A program made the translations under genes and the position numbers. A stretch of 49,638 nucleotides of DNA from Fimbriimonadaceae bacterium (lineage in GTDB: Bacteria > Armatimonadota > UBA10988): positions 1 to 49,638 of the forward strand of contig JADZEX010000094.1 of assembly GCA_020850355.1 (NCBI GenBank), written 5' to 3'. The notes under the pieces were generated by a model. That model searched no databases and was not told the DNA's origin. It saw only the letters and a program-made list of their open reading frames with translations. Of this stretch, positions 5,689 through 38,931 are shown piece after piece. Numbering within the stretch: the stretch's first letter is position 1; each line of letters starts with the position of its first letter.

Positions 5689-7149
5689 CTAACGGTCGGG
5701 CGCGGTCTCACCCACCAGCGTCGGTGGCTTCAGGTTGGCGTAGCGGCTCGGGCACTCGGGCTCGGTCTGGCGGACGCCGTGGGGCGTGCGGCGCAGGCCC
5801 GAGGGGCCGCTGGTCAGGGGCTGCAGCAGCTTGTCCACCTCCGCGGGCGGCTGGGTCAGCGAGAGACTCCAAACGCGGGCGTGGCGACCGGCGACCTGGG
5901 AGAACAGGGCGCTGCCGTCAGCCCAGCAGATCACGCGGGCGGTCCAGTCGGCCGCCTGCAGAGCCTGCAGACCGGTTACCGCGTCCTCGTTGCTGCCGGC
6001 CTGGTAGCGATCGCGGATCGCGGCGCAGAGGGCCTGCACCGCCGGGCTGAGCTGCGCCGCCGGCAGGCCGTTGGGGCCGTCGGCCGCGGTCTGCTCAGCC
6101 GCGGTCAGCAGCGGCCAGAGTCGCTCGCCGGGTCCGCCCAACGGGCCGTAACCCCGGGCAGCCAGCCGTTCGGCCAGCGGCAATGCGGCATACCAGGCGG
6201 CAGCCAGGTCGGTCGCCGCGCGCGGCCGGTCGGCCGGCGTCGCCAGCTTCACGCCCAGGACAGCGCCGAGGCCTTGCCAGACCTGCCAGGCCGGCCGCTG
6301 GCGCACCGCCACCAGCAGTTCTCCCGCGCCGCCCAAGGCCAACGGCGGCAGCGGGTCGGGCGCCGTGGCCAGCGCCGTGTCGACCGGTCCGGCGGCCCGC
6401 CAGGTCACGGCCCGCGCCCACTCACCGGCGCTCTGGGCATGCTGCCAGCTATACCACGGGCCGGACTGCGCCGGCGACTGGCCCGCCGATCCCACGCCAT
6501 AGCTCGCGCGGCCAGCCCCGCCGCCTGCCGCCACCCAGACCACGCTGACCTGGCCTCCGGGACTCCGCTGAATCGCGCTCAGACGGTAGTCCAGTTGGCT
6601 CCGCCACGAGCGGAGCAGGTCCTGCAGTGCTTGCAGTTGCAGGAACTGCCGGACCTGCTGGAGCTCCGGGCCGGGGCGCTGGTCCAACACCTGCAGCCCG
6701 CGCGCAGCGGCCGGCCGGGCCGCCTGCCAGGCTGCCGCGGTCGCCAGGGCCTGGGTCCGCACCTGCTCCGTCGCGGCCCAGTACCGCGCCGCGACCGCCG
6801 CCGGCAGCTCCGCCGCCGGCAGGTCGCGCAGACTCCGCAGCGGCTCGCCCAGCGCCGCGACCGCCGGGCTGCGCAGCCAGGTCGCCAAGGTCTCGTCAAG
6901 CGCTGGAGCGCGGGTGATCAACCACAGCCCCTCAACTTGGATCGCCTGACAGCCAAACGCGGCGGCCACCCCGGCCGGTGTCGCCGCGGTCACCGGGCCG
7001 ACCGCCGGGCGCTGGTCGTCGACCGCCAGCACCTCCCACCGCGGATCGGCGGCCAGCAGCTCTTGCAGCCGCTGCGTCAGCTCGCCCGCCAACGCGCCAC
7101 GGCTGCCCAGCGTCAGGGTCAACAGGACCCAGAGTCCCCTGCGTTTCAT
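5689..7149 (-). CDS. secreted protein of unknown function, copy 1 of family A
   Basis: 486 residues with a signal peptide (MKRRGLWVLLTLTLGSRGALA). The first ~70 residues of the mature part, from LTQRLQELLAADPRWEVLAV to LWLITRAP, follow the length and rhythm of a secretin/TonB short N-terminal (STN) domain, with the two short strands and TPAGVAAAFG helix. The rest, rich in Ala and Trp, I do not recognise. ATG 7149 overlaps the stop of the upstream B1 gene (ATGA), so both come from one transcript. A paralogue (A2, 9286-10785) sits 3.6 kb upstream with the same partner; aligned segments include LTxRLQEL, FGCQAxxxEGxWxxxxAP-like patterns. The gene is convergent with the ThyX gene, only eight bases away. 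Confidence 0.75.
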   Translation of the reverse strand: MKRRGLWVLLTLTLGSRGALAGELTQRLQELLAADPRWEVLAVDDQRPAVGPVTAATPAGVAAAFGCQAIQVEGLWLITRAPALDETLATWLRSPAVAALGEPLRSLRDLPAAELPAAVAARYWAATEQVRTQALATAAAWQAARPAAARGLQVLDQRPGPELQQVRQFLQLQALQDLLRSWRSQLDYRLSAIQRSPGGQVSVVWVAAGGGAGRASYGVGSAGQSPAQSGPWYSWQHAQSAGEWARAVTWRAAGPVDTALATAPDPLPPLALGGAGELLVAVRQRPAWQVWQGLGAVLGVKLATPADRPRAATDLAAAWYAALPLAERLAARGYGPLGGPGERLWPLLTAAEQTAADGPNGLPAAQLSPAVQALCAAIRDRYQAGSNEDAVTGLQALQAADWTARVICWADGSALFSQVAGRHARVWSLSLTQPPAEVDKLLQPLTSGPSGLRRTPHGVRQTEPECPSRYANLKPPTLVGETAPDR

Positions 7150-8495
7150 CGCCCACCTCCCCAGTCGGCCGTCTGCAGCGCCGCCGCCGCGGGCGGATCA
7201 ACCAGCGCCCGCAGCCGCAGCGCCGTCGCGCCACCCAGCCACTGGCTGTAACCCGGCGCGCTCAGCTCGAAGCTCCCCTCATCGGGGTGGTACCAGCACT
7301 TCAGCGCCACGCCGCCCTGCTCATTCGGCAGATTGGCCGGCAGATTGGCCCAGCCCCAGGCGACGGCCTGTTCCAGCAGCGCCGCCAGCGGCTGGCGAGT
7401 CGCCTCCGGAAGCTCCCGCAGCCGCAGCGCGCCGTCGCGCAGGCGTTGCTCCCAGGTCGCCTCCAGCGCCGCGTAGCAGGCGGCCCGCAGGTCGTCTTCG
7501 GCGGCGTACTGCTCGTTGACGGTGAACTGGGTGGCCGGCCACCAGCGCAGGGGCGTGTTGCGGACCAGCAGCGCCGCCACCTGCCGCGGCGGGTCCAACC
7601 GGTAGCCGTCCCCGGCCGGCCGCAGCGTCGCCCCCGCCACGCGCGCCAGCGCTACCAAAGCCTGGCGGGCCGGCAGTGCGGTGGCCTGCAGCCGCAACGG
7701 GCGGTTGGGCAGGTCCGCGGCCACGGTCAGAGTCGTCCCACACTGCGCGCTCCAGGCCGCAGCCAACTCGGCCGCGCTGCCGACCTGGTCCAGGGTGATG
7801 GCCGTGCTGAGGCGGGCGTCGCGGCCCAGCTCGGTCGTCGCGCGGGTCCGCTCCAACAACCCCTGGCGGTACTCGGCGGCCGGCAGGGTGCCGCCCAGCT
7901 CGGCCTGCTTGCGGGCGAAGCGGTCCAGACCGCGCTGTTCCAGCGCCACGGTCTGCACCCGTTCGTAGTTGGCGGTGGTGCTCGGAAACGCCGCCAGCAG
8001 GCCAAAGAGCGGCTCGCCAACCACCGGCAGCGCGGCCACCCGCAGCCACGGCTCCCCAGCCTGGCGCTGGACCTGTTGCTGCCACAGGTTGCCGACGGTC
8101 GGCGCCGCCATCCAGCAGGCCGCTTCGCGCAGGCGCTGCCGGCTGACCTCGTCACGCCAGCCGCGCACCAGAATCGTCGCCGCTTCGGTCAACGGTGCCG
8201 CGGCCTGCGGGGTGGCCGTCTCCGGCCCATCCTCCCCCCGCCGCAGCAAGGCCTGATACGGCTCCGGCACGTCGCGCAACAGGTTGTCCAAGGTCACCGG
8301 GACCGTCGGCTCGATCACCAGCACGTCGCCGTAGCGCACCACGGTGTGCCCCGCCACCTCCCGCGGCGCCCACCACGGCCCCGTCCCGGGCCACTCGATT
8401 TGCAGCACCTCCGCCGCCAGGGCCGGGGGACAATCTCCCACCACCCCCCGCGGCGCAGGCGCCGTCAGCAAGAGCAGACTCAAAGTCAGCCACAT
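7146..8495 (-). CDS. secreted protein of unknown function, copy 1 of family B
   Basis: 449 residues beginning MWLTLSLLLLTAPAPRGVVG, a signal peptide. GGAGG lies just upstream of ATG 8495. A central segment (about residues 230-300: LDQVGSAAELAAAW, then LPARQALVALARVAGA and GYRLDPP) resembles an STN/secretin N-domain, which usually forms part of a periplasmic ring or signalling domain. The following RNTPLRWWPATQFTVN block is strictly kept in the B2 paralogue. There is no beta-barrel or secretin domain after it, so this is a soluble exported protein. It is translationally coupled to A1. The first 242 bases of the coding region are almost identical to those of B2 although the rest has diverged. 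Function unknown. Confidence 0.75.
   Translation of the reverse strand: MWLTLSLLLLTAPAPRGVVGDCPPALAAEVLQIEWPGTGPWWAPREVAGHTVVRYGDVLVIEPTVPVTLDNLLRDVPEPYQALLRRGEDGPETATPQAAAPLTEAATILVRGWRDEVSRQRLREAACWMAAPTVGNLWQQQVQRQAGEPWLRVAALPVVGEPLFGLLAAFPSTTANYERVQTVALEQRGLDRFARKQAELGGTLPAAEYRQGLLERTRATTELGRDARLSTAITLDQVGSAAELAAAWSAQCGTTLTVAADLPNRPLRLQATALPARQALVALARVAGATLRPAGDGYRLDPPRQVAALLVRNTPLRWWPATQFTVNEQYAAEDDLRAACYAALEATWEQRLRDGALRLRELPEATRQPLAALLEQAVAWGWANLPANLPNEQGGVALKCWYHPDEGSFELSAPGYSQWLGGATALRLRALVDPPAAAALQTADWGGGR
8221..8462 (-). repeat. near-identical block shared by the 5' ends of B1 and B2
   Basis: Positions 8221-8462 align without gaps to 11860-12101 (constant offset 3639). Within this, 8221-8278 is identical, and 8333-8462 differs only at 8406 (C here, T at 12045). 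The rest of the two genes differs at many positions. This points to recent gene conversion or very strong constraint on the 5' end. Confidence 0.75.
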
Positions 8496-8516
8496 TGTCT
8501 GGCACCTCCACCCCTT

Positions 8517-8545
8517 GATATCGCTGCTGCGGACAGCGCTGTCAA
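8517..8545 (-). promoter_or_regulatory. promoter of the B1-A1 pair
   Basis: TTGACA (8540-8545) and GATATC (8517-8522) are 17 bases apart on the minus strand. The same arrangement, TTGACA-N17-GATATA, precedes B2, which supports both calls. Confidence 0.6.
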
Positions 8546-8647
8546 GGGCACTCAGAGAGAAACACGCCGTGACATACCGGCCGGGGTAAGGGGGAACCCA
8601 CCGCGGGTGCGGCGGCTGACGTCAGACACGGCCCCGCCCACTGCACC

Positions 8648-10785: not shown

Positions 10786-12134
10786 TGTCCACCTCCCCAC
10801 GCGCTAACCAAATCCGGGCTGAAGGCCGGGACACCGGCGGCTCGCGCCAGGAACTGCGCCACCGCCAGGCCGGTCAACTGCTCGCTGTAGCCCGGCAGAC
10901 TCAACTCGATGATCTGCCACTTGGAGTGGTACCAGCACTTCATCCGCACCTGCCCCGCCTCGTCCGGCAGGCTGGGGCGGAGGGCGGCCCAGTGCCAGGC
11001 GGTGACCTCTTCGAGCAGCTCGCCGAAGGCCGGGGTGGCCGCTGGCGGCAGGTCGCCCAGGCGGCGCGCCTCGTCGCGCAGCAGGTCCTGGCCGGCCTGG
11101 CCGAGCGCGGTGTAGCAGGCGGCCCGCAGGTCGTCTTCGGCGGCGTACTGGTCGTTGACCGTGAACTGCGTCGCCGGCCACCAGCGCAGCGGCGTGTTAC
11201 GCGCCAGCAGCGCTCCAGTCTCGCGCGGGGCGGTCAGCCGATAGCCCTCAGCGGTGGCTGTCAGCTCGGCGCCGGCCAGCCGCGCCAGCGCCAGCAGCGC
11301 CTCCCGCGCCGGCAGCCGGTCAGCCCGCAGCAGCACCGGCCGCGCGGCGACCGCCGGCTCTACCGCCAACGGCACACTGCTCTCGACCGCCCACAACCCC
11401 GCCAGCTCGTCGATCGTGGCCACCTGATCGAGGTCGATCGCCACGTCCAGCCGGCGGTCCCGGCCGATCCCTGTCCCGGCCCGCGTCGCCGCCAGCAACC
11501 GCCGGCGGTACTCCTCGGCCGGCAGCGCCCCGCCCTTGGCGGCCTGCTTGCGGGCGAACCGGTCGAGGCCGACCTGGCCCAGCTCAACCCGCAACGAGCC
11601 GCCGATCACCGGCCGCGGGTCGAGGTAGTAGACCACCCCGATCAGCGGGGCCTGCGGCTCCAGGGGTGTCGGCACCAGGCGCACCCAAGGGGTCCCCGCC
11701 AGCCGCTGCTCCTGCTGCCGCCAGACCCGCGCCACCGCCGGGCCGGCCATCCAGCAGGCCACCTCGCGCAAGCGCTGCCGCGACTCGTCGTCGTCCAACC
11801 CCTTCGTCAAAATGAACGCCGCGTCGGTCAGCGGCGCAACCTGCTCCGGCGCCAGGTCCTCCGGCCCATCCTCCCCCCGCCGCAGCAAGGCCTGATACGG
11901 CTCCGGCACGTCGCGCAGCAGGGCGTCCAGGGTCACCGTAACGGTCGGCTCGACCACCACCACGTCGCCGAAGCGCACCACGGTGTGCCCCGCCACCTCC
12001 CGCGGCGCCCACCACGGCCCCGTCCCGGGCCACTCGATTTGCAGTACCTCCGCCGCCAGGGCCGGGGGACAATCTCCCACCACCCCCCGCGGCGCAGGCG
12101 CTGTCAGCCACAGCAGACTCAGCGTCAACCACAT
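10782..12134 (-). CDS. secreted protein of unknown function, copy 2 of family B
   Basis: 450 residues from ATG 12134, with AGGAGG seven to nine bases upstream. The signal peptide MWLTLSLLWLTAPAPRGVVG and the next ~60 residues are nearly the same as in B1. The STN-like segment (LDQVATIDELAGLW, LPAREALLALARLAGA, GYRLTAP) and the block RNTPLRWWPATQFTVNDQYA are shared. Divergence rises in the middle and at the C-terminus, so the copies probably differ in what they bind. Both B genes end with a translationally coupled A gene, which suggests that A and B act as a pair in the cell envelope. Confidence 0.75.
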   Translation of the reverse strand: MWLTLSLLWLTAPAPRGVVGDCPPALAAEVLQIEWPGTGPWWAPREVAGHTVVRFGDVVVVEPTVTVTLDALLRDVPEPYQALLRRGEDGPEDLAPEQVAPLTDAAFILTKGLDDDESRQRLREVACWMAGPAVARVWRQQEQRLAGTPWVRLVPTPLEPQAPLIGVVYYLDPRPVIGGSLRVELGQVGLDRFARKQAAKGGALPAEEYRRRLLAATRAGTGIGRDRRLDVAIDLDQVATIDELAGLWAVESSVPLAVEPAVAARPVLLRADRLPAREALLALARLAGAELTATAEGYRLTAPRETGALLARNTPLRWWPATQFTVNDQYAAEDDLRAACYTALGQAGQDLLRDEARRLGDLPPAATPAFGELLEEVTAWHWAALRPSLPDEAGQVRMKCWYHSKWQIIELSLPGYSEQLTGLAVAQFLARAAGVPAFSPDLVSAWGGGQ

Positions 12135-36302: not shown

Positions 36303-36337
36303 CCCTGCGACCGGCCGGTCAGCCGACGCTGAGCGGC
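36303..36337. repeat. 35-bp direct repeat, left copy
   Basis: Identical over all 35 bases to 38256-38290 and in the same orientation. It begins CCCTGCGACCGGCCGG and ends GCTGAGCGGC, and includes the 12-base palindrome GACCGGCCGGTC. This copy lies outside any gene, between the glycosidase-like gene and the nuclease-like gene. Confidence 0.9.
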
Positions 36338-36349
36338 AAACGGTGTCGG

Positions 36350-37021
36350 CTAGGATCCATCGTCCTGCAGCCGCGTCAGCAGGTCATCGAGAGTACCAAA
36401 GCTGCCGATGTGGCCGGTGTCGTGTAGCCGCTCCACGAGACGATCGTAGTACGACCCGCTGGCCGCCTGACCCGGCTTCTGCTTGCTGTACACGGTGCCG
36501 CGTGCTTGAAAGACGCTCCGGAGGTACTGCAAGTGATACTGGGAGCGGGTCTGTGTGGCGTCAGGCGCTTCCATCTGTTCGGGGTCGCGCTTCCGAACAT
36601 CATAGTGCTGGAGTGCCCGCCTCAGATCGGCCGACTGGGGATTGGCCGCGACCATTCTGCGATTGCCTAGTAGCCACGTCTCAATGCAGCACACCTGAAC
36701 TATCACCACCAGCTCGGCGCCGATGGCATCCACGCCAACGGCCGCCTGGACCTCATCGCGCAGAGCCATTGGATCATGATCATCGGAGTCGAGGGATACT
36801 ACAAAGTGGCTGATGCAGCGGTACCGGCGAATGTCGGCGGCGGCGGCGGCAATGTGGTCCAGAATGCTAGGGTAGCCGTAACCACTGAGCAGCAGCAGGT
36901 TGTTCGCCGTGACTTGGTCAATACTGCCGACTTCCTGAAGCCACGGCAAGCGGTGCCTGAGCCAGCCCCGGTAGACGGCCGGCTCTGTGCGCCTACCCTC
37001 GACCAGGAGGTACAGGTTCAC
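36350..37021 (-). CDS. TOPRIM-like nuclease subunit of a putative defence pair (DUF4276-like)
   Basis: 223 residues from GTG 37021, overlapping the ATPase stop by four bases. The N-terminus MNLYLLVEGRRTEPAVYRGW has the strand-Glu pattern of TOPRIM domains (Glu8, then Thr12-Glu13). HFVVSLDSDDHDP (Asp78, Asp80, Asp81) supplies the D-x-D metal motif. CIETWLLGN (residues 112-120) resembles the ExWLL signature of DUF4276/RloB/DUF4435-like nucleases. In known systems such subunits work with an SMC-like ATPase (AbiL, PARIS, split OLD). It has a low-G+C composition like its partner and no relation to the genes around. I infer a nuclease activated through the ATPase; the family assignment rests on motifs only. 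Confidence 0.65.
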   Translation of the reverse strand: MNLYLLVEGRRTEPAVYRGWLRHRLPWLQEVGSIDQVTANNLLLLSGYGYPSILDHIAAAAADIRRYRCISHFVVSLDSDDHDPMALRDEVQAAVGVDAIGAELVVIVQVCCIETWLLGNRRMVAANPQSADLRRALQHYDVRKRDPEQMEAPDATQTRSQYHLQYLRSVFQARGTVYSKQKPGQAASGSYYDRLVERLHDTGHIGSFGTLDDLLTRLQDDGS

Positions 37022-38154
37022 TGCACACCATGCCGGTACTCTGGCGTATTCATCAGACGCATGAACTGTTGATGCCGCGAGACGCCTTGGAGCGCTGGCA
37101 AGGCAGCCGCTGGCCGGACGTCAACCACTGCGCCGCGGCGCTGGACAAGGCGCCAGCACTCGATCGGGATGTTGTTGATGATGTAGGGGTGGTGACTGGT
37201 CAGGATGTACTGCACCCGCCCGCGGCGTGCCATGACGTTCGCAGTAATGGTATCCAGACAGTTGACACCCAGACCATTCTCGAACTCATCAATGAGGATG
37301 ATGGTGTCATCGGGAGCCAGGGCATCCTCCAACAGATGCACCAAGGACCGCTGCATCCCAGCCGACATGATCGGCCAAGTCACCCAACCACGAACGCCAA
37401 GCTCCTTGCAGGCCGTCACCAGTGGTTCGTCGCGCAGGCCATAGCGACTGCGCCAGTCGGGTACATACTGGCTCAGGGGGCCGATCTCCAAGTTGCGCAC
37501 CGTTGGGAAGATGCTGCAGTAGTCAGACTTGATCTTGGCAAAGTCCTCAACGCAGTTCTGTTGAAGCAGGTAGGCGCGTACCAGGATGGGAATATCCACC
37601 AGGGATCGAATGGCCTCGGGAGTGCGCGAGGCTTCTTGCAGAGTTTGGATGTCGCTCGCCATCCTGGAGTACGAGATAGTCGCATCACGGTGGCGGTCCA
37701 CTTCGCTGAAGAGCATGCGGCGCATCACGTTGGCGACAGGGGCGATGCGTTCCACTTCGTCAAACAGTGCCACCGCACTGAAGGCTCGCGTGAACTTCGG
37801 GTAGTCGCGGCCACTGAGGGTGAAGCGCGAGCGGCTTCGTTCGACGATGACGTCGCCGTTGTAGGAAAGGGACTCTGCCGCCATCAGGGCCTCGGCCTCG
37901 GGCCGTTGCGAGGGTGCACCCGTCTTGCCGGTCCAGCGAAACCGCTTGGCGCCGGAGTGGATCTCCATCTCCCAGGTGATCTTTGGCGGGAGTCGCTCGC
38001 CCAGAGCGATTCGGCGCATCGTGCGCAGCGCGTCGAGCACTCGGGTCTTGCCCGCCCCAGAAACGCCGATCAGCAGATTCAGCTCGCCAAGCTCCGCGGA
38101 CCGCAACTCCCAGTTCTGCACGCCATCCTTGAATGCAAAGCGATCTACGGGCAT
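37018..38154 (-). CDS. SMC/OLD-like AAA ATPase of a putative defence pair
   Basis: 378 residues from ATG 38154, with GGAGGA six to seven bases upstream; the frame is open a further 33 codons, back into the repeat, without a better start. ATPase motifs: Walker A GVSGAGKT (residues 30-37), signature-like SAGMQRSL (264-271), Walker B IILIDEFEN (285-293) and switch histidine in LTSHHPYI (318-325). This order is that of AAA_15/AAA_21 ATPases in OLD, RloA/PrrC-type, AbiLi and PARIS AriA proteins. The middle part (about 90-250) is an insert that likely forms a coiled or sensor region. There is no TOPRIM domain in this polypeptide; the next gene supplies it. Phage defence is inferred from this architecture. 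Confidence 0.78.
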   Translation of the reverse strand: MPVDRFAFKDGVQNWELRSAELGELNLLIGVSGAGKTRVLDALRTMRRIALGERLPPKITWEMEIHSGAKRFRWTGKTGAPSQRPEAEALMAAESLSYNGDVIVERSRSRFTLSGRDYPKFTRAFSAVALFDEVERIAPVANVMRRMLFSEVDRHRDATISYSRMASDIQTLQEASRTPEAIRSLVDIPILVRAYLLQQNCVEDFAKIKSDYCSIFPTVRNLEIGPLSQYVPDWRSRYGLRDEPLVTACKELGVRGWVTWPIMSAGMQRSLVHLLEDALAPDDTIILIDEFENGLGVNCLDTITANVMARRGRVQYILTSHHPYIINNIPIECWRLVQRRGAVVDVRPAAALPALQGVSRHQQFMRLMNTPEYRHGVQ

Positions 38155-38255
38155 CGTCGGTCCTCCGCTCGCCGTAATGGTGACCCGACCGGCAAGTTGC
38201 GGCCTATCGGACCCAGTTCCTTCAGATCGCGGAGACCGGATCGCAACGCGCATTG

Positions 38256-38290
38256 CCCTGCGACCGGCCGGTCAGCCGACGCTGAGCGGC
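38256..38290. repeat. 35-bp direct repeat, right copy
   Basis: Same sequence as 36303-36337. Its last 19 bases are the stop codon and final codons of the gene at 38272-38931, so the repeat unit reaches into a coding 3' end, as attachment sites often do. Confidence 0.9.
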
Positions 38291-38931
38291 GGTTGGCGGG
38301 GAGTCAACAGGAACAGCGCCGGTTCGTCGGGCGGGCAGCGCAGCAGCAGGGGCTCGTCGGGAGCAGGGCGGCTGGCGCCGGCGACCGCACCATCGAACGG
38401 GTCGATCAACAGCAGCCAGCGCGGGCCGGGTGGCGGCAGCGGCAGCGCGCCGCCGGCGGGGGCGTAACCGGCGAGCTCGTCGCCAGCACCGCGCAGGGCC
38501 CAGCCGGGTGGGGCGGGCTGCGGTTGCCAGCCAGCGACGTCGGCGGTTTGGCTGGCGAGGGCCACCAGCGGCGCCAACGCCGCGGCCGGGCCGGCCAGCA
38601 GCAGGTGGCCGGCGAACAGCGCGGCCCAGGCGGCGGCGACGTCGCCCACCTCGTGGACCTGGCTGGCGTCAGTCAGCACGTGCGGCTCGGACGGCAGCAG
38701 GCCGGGCGGCGCCAGCACGCCGATCCCGGCACGGCGGGCGGTGTCCTTGGCAACCACCGCGGCGTCGGCCGCCGCGGCGGCCAGCCGGACGCCGTTGAAG
38801 CCGGCGGCGGCCAGTTCACGCACGGCGCTGCGGATGCGCGCCACGCCTCGGGGCAGCGCCAGGTCAGCGGCCAGCAGCAGGGTCGCCTGGCCCTTGCAGA
38901 TCGCCCCCTGGGCCGTGAAGGTGACGGGCAT
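38272..38931 (-). CDS. uncharacterised protein resembling part of a glycosidase TIM barrel
   Basis: 219 residues. The stretch VARIRSAVRELAAAGFNGVRL, AVVAKDTARRAGIGVLAPPGLLPSEPHV follows the pattern of the early strands of GH2/GH5-like barrels (search helix, FNxVRL strand, then DxADRxGIxV). The usual acid/base Glu region is missing and the protein ends with a Leu/Pro-rich tail ending at PLSVG. It has no signal peptide. It starts one base after the TPM gene stop, so it belongs to the nucleotidyltransferase - TPM operon. Its last codons form part of the 35-bp repeat. It may be a non-catalytic remnant or an independent binding protein. Confidence 0.5.
   Translation of the reverse strand: MPVTFTAQGAICKGQATLLLAADLALPRGVARIRSAVRELAAAGFNGVRLAAAAADAAVVAKDTARRAGIGVLAPPGLLPSEPHVLTDASQVHEVGDVAAAWAALFAGHLLLAGPAAALAPLVALASQTADVAGWQPQPAPPGWALRGAGDELAGYAPAGGALPLPPPGPRWLLLIDPFDGAVAGASRPAPDEPLLLRCPPDEPALFLLTPRQPPLSVG

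Follow-up and report, generated by a model that had tools for sequence, protein, structure and literature searches.

The window, a stretch of 49,638 nt from a Fimbriimonadaceae bacterium, carries a two-gene cassette (AB) in which A is an ATPase resembling AbiLi, AriA, and PtuA and B is a probable TOPRIM-like partner. Judged by sequence comparison, the AB family is a third sister branch of ATPase + RloB-like TOPRIM modules, beside the RloB/AbiL and DUF4276 pairs, and it holds together as a coherent branch across at least eight phyla. An antiphage function is most likely, on evidence that is good though indirect, as relatives of the pair are placed at the gpA-gpQ hotspot of P2-like phages. The intact pair, the conservation of its catalytic residues, the linkage of the two genes, their spread, the insertion footprint and the phage-hotspot placement are direct observations.

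The AB pair lies on an inserted unit

Genes A and B span positions 36350-38154 on the minus strand, with A upstream of B, and the GTG start of B shares 4 nt with the TGA stop of A (GTGA overlap). The start of A was set at 38154, as Met1 is kept in 74/74 rows of the family alignment; an alternative ATG upstream, at 38253, would add 33 aa to the protein, and family conservation favours 38154. The features on which the initial annotation had built its case, i.e., two ORFs joined by the GTGA overlap, the motifs of A (Walker A, SAGMQR, DEFEN, and switch His) and those of B, are all present, with the motifs of A conserved in 74 homologues and the acidic residues of B in 69. The pair also differs from its surroundings in base composition, as had been pointed out before: its GC content is 61–62% vs. 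72–78% in the neighboring genes, and its third-position GC is 0.75–0.76 vs. 0.86–0.92. Coordinates of all features are listed in Table 1. Elsewhere in the window, two near-identical stretches (7473-8454 and 11112-12093) lie at a distance of 3639 bp and share exact blocks of up to ~70 bp; they probably represent a tandem gene duplication.

Table 1. Features of the AB cassette and its borders; positions refer to the window.
Feature	Position	Strand	Remarks
Direct repeat (35 bp), right copy	38256..38290	.	spans the final five codons of gene 38272-38931, its stop codon, and the sequence immediately beyond
Direct repeat (35 bp), left copy, on the downstream side of B	36303..36337	.	non-coding; repeats the final codons, the stop codon, and the 3′ flank of gene 38272-38931
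Flanking gene, 219 aa, no known domain	38272..38931	-	outside the system; its 3′ end is the duplicated target
Leader of A, 101 nt, adjoining the right repeat	38155..38255	-	likely promoter and ribosome-binding region, from sequence
Gene A, SMC/ABC-head ATPase, 378 aa	37018..38154	-	family conservation, Pfam AAA_21, predicted model
Walker A GVSGAGKT, A residues 30-37	38044..38067	-	G30, S32, G33, G35, and K36 invariant in 74
ABC signature-like SAGMQR, A residues 264-269	37348..37365	-	S264 and G266 invariant
Walker B Asp289-Glu290 (in IILIDEFEN)	37285..37290	-	invariant
Switch His321-His322 (in TSHH)	37189..37194	-	invariant
Gene B, TOPRIM-like, 223 aa, GTG start	36350..37021	-	RloB/DUF4276 homology by hhalign; predicted model
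B Glu8, first TOPRIM acidic residue	36998..37000	-	69/69
B Asp78-x-Asp80, TOPRIM DxD position	36782..36790	-	D78 69/69; position 80 D or E 69/69
B Glu114, ETW motif	36680..36682	-	69/69

The cassette is bordered by a perfect 35-bp direct repeat, for which the chance expectation in the window is 0 and of which only two copies exist across the 6.67-Mb genome. The limits first given to the locus, 36303-38290, are the exact outer ends of this repeat, although the repeat itself was absent from the initial annotation. Since the repeat is a second copy of the 3′ end of the neighboring gene (38272-38931), the AB cassette is an insertion, with an inserted unit of 1953 bp. In the nearest genome the two genes flanking the cassette lie apart, and thus the search for an empty site in relatives provided no pre-insertion sequence to compare. 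No known RNA family was found in the repeats. A reading of the window repeat as an integron attC site was not supported, since there are only two genome copies and no array.

Protein A is an SMC/ABC-type ATPase and protein B is probably TOPRIM-like

The Walker A, signature, Walker B, and switch motifs of A are all intact and are invariant or nearly so in the 74 homologues. The protein matches Pfam AAA_21 (1.1e-12), and its predicted model (pLDDT 93) gave PtuA (Septu/retrons) and SMC heads as the best Foldseek matches. With these four motifs and the modeled SMC-head fold A can be classed with the ABC/SMC-type ATPases. The predicted model of B (pLDDT 96) consists of alternating strands and helices. 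In the model and the alignment the pattern is that of TOPRIM domains: Glu8 stands just after strand 1 (residues 3-7) and the DxD residues D78/D80 are at the end of strand 3 (72-78), within a beta-alpha fold.

The relationship of B to DUF4276 and RloB, suggested previously from its motifs, was supported by hhalign. The B profile aligned with DUF4276 over the full length (96.9%, E 1.3e-10) and with RloB at 96.2% (E 2.5e-9). Likewise, the division of labor between an ATPase and a TOPRIM-like protein, as known from PARIS and AbiL, agrees with the resemblance of A to AbiLi and AriA and with the RloB/DUF4276 kinship of B. In the viral library BFVD the best Foldseek match of B was an RloB-like phage protein (E 1.4e-3). 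Foldseek against the PDB returned no match at E ≤ 0.001, and the top matches were unrelated alpha/beta folds; the TOPRIM assignment made in the initial annotation therefore rests on homology and motif position, together with the order of strands and helices, and not on a solved structure. On these grounds, B is probably TOPRIM-like.

A and B form a conserved module with a wide horizontal spread

When A and B were each searched by tblastn against 72,556 plasmids, both returned the same 7 plasmids, with the genes adjacent and in the same order. These plasmids come from Bacteroidota, Cyanobacteria, and Gamma- and Betaproteobacteria. Among 94 A loci, B was found immediately downstream on the same strand in 89, mostly with a 4-nt overlap. 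All 31 copies of B in 30 whole genomes adjoin an A, and two A copies occur without B; the 30 genomes searched for a solitary B were chosen for containing A, so a solitary B is possible elsewhere. Distance matrices of the two proteins correlate (Mantel r 0.85; 0/2000 permutations). The AB pair is a real conserved module with near-obligate linkage, and its two members co-evolve.

A single-sequence scan of genome contigs with A found nothing. An 8-row profile of A used against GTDB genomes revealed at least 234 relatives, of which 80 were kept. The relatives belong to Cyanobacteria, Bacteroidota, Myxococcota, Planctomycetota, Verrucomicrobiota, Acidobacteriota, Pseudomonadota, and others, i.e., at least eight phyla. 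In Armatimonadota, the phylum of the window genome, B was present in only 2/61 genomes. The cassette has spread widely by horizontal transfer across phyla, plasmids, and phages.

Relatives occupy a phage hotspot, plasmids, and solitary chromosomal sites

On several viral contigs, the AB pair resides in P2-like phages between gpA (PHROG 91, nicking at the origin) and the portal gene gpQ (PHROG 68), and gpQ is followed by the genes for terminase, scaffold, and capsid, ordered as in P2. A prophage in the E. coli chromosome NZ_AP045766.1 carries the pair (WP_497750508.1 + WP_029396084.1) at the old-tin position, with this gene order in its RefSeq annotation; it was 1 of 5,426 genomes. The cos-proximal gpA-gpQ locus, which is old-tin in P2 itself, is a published anti-phage hotspot (PMC9122126). 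The survey of this hotspot curated arrangements seen at least 10 times (PMC9122126), and with such a threshold an arrangement as rare in E. coli as AB could be missed. With this naturally occurring copy, the predicted function can be examined directly in a laboratory host.

Small plasmids of 10–15 kb carry AB as well, two of them together with classic toxin-antitoxin genes, and on one larger plasmid an AB copy lies beside a restriction-modification system. The Methylovorus plasmid pMsip02 (L028:1-9816) contains filamentous-phage genes (Zot domain, capsid, integrase), with AB next to the integrase. A 10-kb Proteus plasmid holds two AB copies (L024:1082-2949 and 6661-8554); one A is split into two frames and its B is intact.

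The chromosomal copies are solitary insertions. For 69 cassettes, the two closest genes on either side were mainly of the housekeeping kind, and a comparison of PADLOC families near vs. far from these cassettes gave no enrichment, so that placement of the chromosomal copies in defence islands was rejected. The initial annotation had named recurrence in defence islands as a supporting finding, which was not what the neighborhoods revealed; its proposal of an antiphage candidate is supported indirectly by the relatives at the P2 gpA-gpQ position. Since they stand alone among housekeeping genes, mining of defence islands would miss them. At the same time, the family is not tied to a single conserved housekeeping context, the finding that had been named as an argument against a defence role. 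Only a cyanobacterial subset shares a site: in six loci (L032, L036, L039, L045, L048, and L051) AB lies beside mnmG (gidA), a tRNA-modification gene, and this site may represent one old insertion. In Sphingobacterium alkalisoli an RloB-type pair and an AB pair are located ~6 kb apart (L211:5188-5724; G083 contig C16).

Direct repeats flank a fraction of the cassettes

Exact direct repeats of at least 17 bp within 400 bp on both sides were detected for 8/83 cassettes vs. 7/3083 control placements (p 2e-11), which corresponds to ~10% of AB cassettes and 0.2% of controls; some of the repeat-flanked loci are close kin (three Nostocales), and the number of independent events is thus below 8. A looser blastn test with 1500-bp flanks gave 12/91 vs. 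12/318 in the control, and because of this noisy control the strict test was used. Sister RloB/DUF4276 pairs showed direct repeats in 3/33 cases (9%). Specificity of the repeats for the AB family was thereby rejected; the equal rate in sister pairs indicates a habit of such cassettes and not of the AB branch.

Several of the repeats are duplicated gene ends: on one side of the cassette the gene end is restored, and the other side retains a remnant. In the three Nostocales the repeat is the 3′ end of one gene, and in L072 a 277-bp repeat includes the start of a gene that in translation looks like a GHMP kinase (resemblance only). In L034 (9729-9798 and 11956-12025) purL has its last 21 codons repeated on the far side of AB, and the distal copy has an in-frame stop. 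In L098 (9868-9933 and 12005-12070) a second copy of the start of fhs (formate-tetrahydrofolate ligase) lies upstream of A, and the two copies are 86% identical. A Flavobacterium contig (L087:28-5816) contains five copies of an imperfect ~130-nt hairpin repeat, and each of several small cassettes, AB among them, is followed by such a copy; this array looks like an integron-type one with no visible integrase. A homologous hairpin was found 3′ of B in another Flavobacterium; in L034 such a homologue of the L087 repeat separates B from the purL remnant. In Saprospira (L210:4000-6150) an RloB-type pair is flanked by a 35-bp repeat resembling a terminator hairpin.

No recombinase gene was found inside the cassette. 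Movement by one-sided homologous recombination with illegitimate joining (PMC3240628) is possible, and so is movement by recombinases acting in trans or by integron integrases. We consider it highly unlikely that the AB unit is itself a minimal mobile element, in which A and B, or a recruited host enzyme, would insert the 2-kb cassette at gene ends, duplicating and hence restoring the gene end. If self-insertion were true, a single ATPase-TOPRIM machine would serve both defence and mobility, and there would be no separate recombinase. Repeats of this kind at gene ends offer a way to study the movement of small defence cassettes that lack a recombinase of their own.

AB probably acts as an abortive-infection module

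By analogy with characterized systems, we regard AB as probably a two-gene, toxin-antitoxin-like abortive-infection module, in which A would sense infection and restrain B, and the freed B, a predicted nuclease, would stop phage growth. In PARIS, the ATPase AriA forms a hexamer that keeps the TOPRIM tRNase AriB sequestered, and a phage trigger sets AriB free (PMC12409363). Pairs of an AAA antitoxin and a TOPRIM toxin were validated in NetFlax (PMC10440598), and AbiLii of Fusobacterium was found to be toxic in E. coli (PMC3985639). From these precedents we infer the nuclease activity, its target, the trigger, and the restraint of B by A. The SMC/ABC-type ATPase A would probably oligomerize, keep B inactive within the complex, and sense an infection cue. 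The trigger would cause an ATP-driven rearrangement and release of B, which as a TOPRIM metal-dependent nuclease may cut an essential nucleic acid, with tRNA as the foremost candidate by analogy with AriB. Activity of B would arrest or kill the cell, and phage growth would stop. In the 2014 study, an AbiLi homologue did not neutralise Fusobacterium AbiLii (PMC3985639). The antitoxin role of A is for this reason not certain, and the restraint by A is the weakest step of the scheme.

Alternatively, AB could be an addiction (toxin-antitoxin) module that stabilises plasmids or mobile elements and has no dedicated phage sensing. This would account for its presence on the small plasmids, two of which hold classic toxin-antitoxin genes, and for the finding that B never occurred without A (in the loci and in the 30 A-selected genomes), whereas A can stand alone; the Proteus plasmid with one A split in two frames also keeps an intact AB copy. 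Yet, the chromosomal copies by housekeeping genes in many phyla and the P2 gpA-gpQ hotspot fit defence better, and the sister systems of the same architecture are antiphage, so that we judge a pure addiction role unlikely. Defence against incoming plasmids or foreign DNA, with B as a direct DNA nuclease and no host killing, appears quite improbable to us. In its favour, A is SMC/Rad50-like, and DNA is the substrate of TOPRIM in OLD/Gabija (PMC10952713). Against it, those two-gene systems that are most closely related to AB are abortive or toxic, and small plasmids themselves carry AB.

The patchy presence of the pair, exemplified by the Armatimonadota genomes, its mobile contexts, and the insertion footprints speak against a function in cellular housekeeping or repair, as for the archaeal OLD-family protein Cran1 (PMC12796447), or a tie to tRNA modification via mnmG. 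The mnmG adjacency would favour such a role, but that site is restricted to cyanobacteria, where a single old insertion may explain it, and we find a housekeeping role scarcely plausible.

AB is a separate branch among known ATPase-TOPRIM systems

The window B reached 13.3 bits on Pfam DUF4276 (cut-off 30.2) and had no match to Pfam RloB; some distant relatives of B just reach the DUF4276 cut-off, e.g., with 30.6 bits. In PADLOC, the best match of the window B was HEC-01B (7.3e-5), with AbiLii at E 0.022, and 53/69 B members match AbiLii weakly. Protein A matched PADLOC AbiLi at 3e-15 over about half of the profile, and A members matched AriA at up to 1.9e-24. RloB proteins of the same genomes scored 42–178 bits on the RloB model (cut-off 31.5), mostly above 60, and RloB and DUF4276 proteins of these genomes taken together mostly 60–200 bits on their own models. 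On the AB-family B profile they remained below 16 bits vs. over 300 for own members. The ATPase partners of the sister pairs had ~30 bits or less on the AB-family A profile, whereas an own member reached 230 across that C-terminal stretch. In a 50-sequence tree the AB family (support 87/97), RloB (96/93), and DUF4276 (94/92) each occupied one side of a branch. The diverged branch considered in the initial annotation is thus recognizable as a clade of its own, below the Pfam cut-offs. It is apparently unnamed in every library searched here, and automated tools may label some of its members AbiL or DUF4276.

AbiL (AbiLi/AbiLii; RloA/RloB-type, PF13707) has, like AB, a ~400-aa ATPase followed by a ~200-aa TOPRIM-related protein, but the window B misses the AbiLii and RloB models and belongs to a separate clade. 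DUF4276 pairs (PF14103), which are probably the HEC-01A/B candidates of PADLOC, share the two-gene layout and a full-length alignment of B profiles with AB; the window B is, however, below their cut-off and again in a separate clade. Literature searches on DUF4276 found no paper. PARIS likewise combines an ATPase sensor (AriA) with a TOPRIM effector, but AriB is a DUF4435 protein, and B of the AB family has no AriB match in PADLOC or Pfam. PtuA of Septu and retrons provides the nearest solved structures to A (Foldseek E ~1e-11), whereas PtuB is an HNH protein and B is RloB/DUF4276-like, with no HNH match. In OLD proteins and Gabija GajA an ATPase is also coupled to TOPRIM; AB, in contrast, consists of separate ORFs with no fused TOPRIM and no UvrD-like helicase next to the pair. 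The NetFlax pairs of AAA (D29) with RloB or OLD_TOPRIM toxins represent the same class of pairing as AB and were proposed as toxin-antitoxin/Abi systems (PMC10440598).
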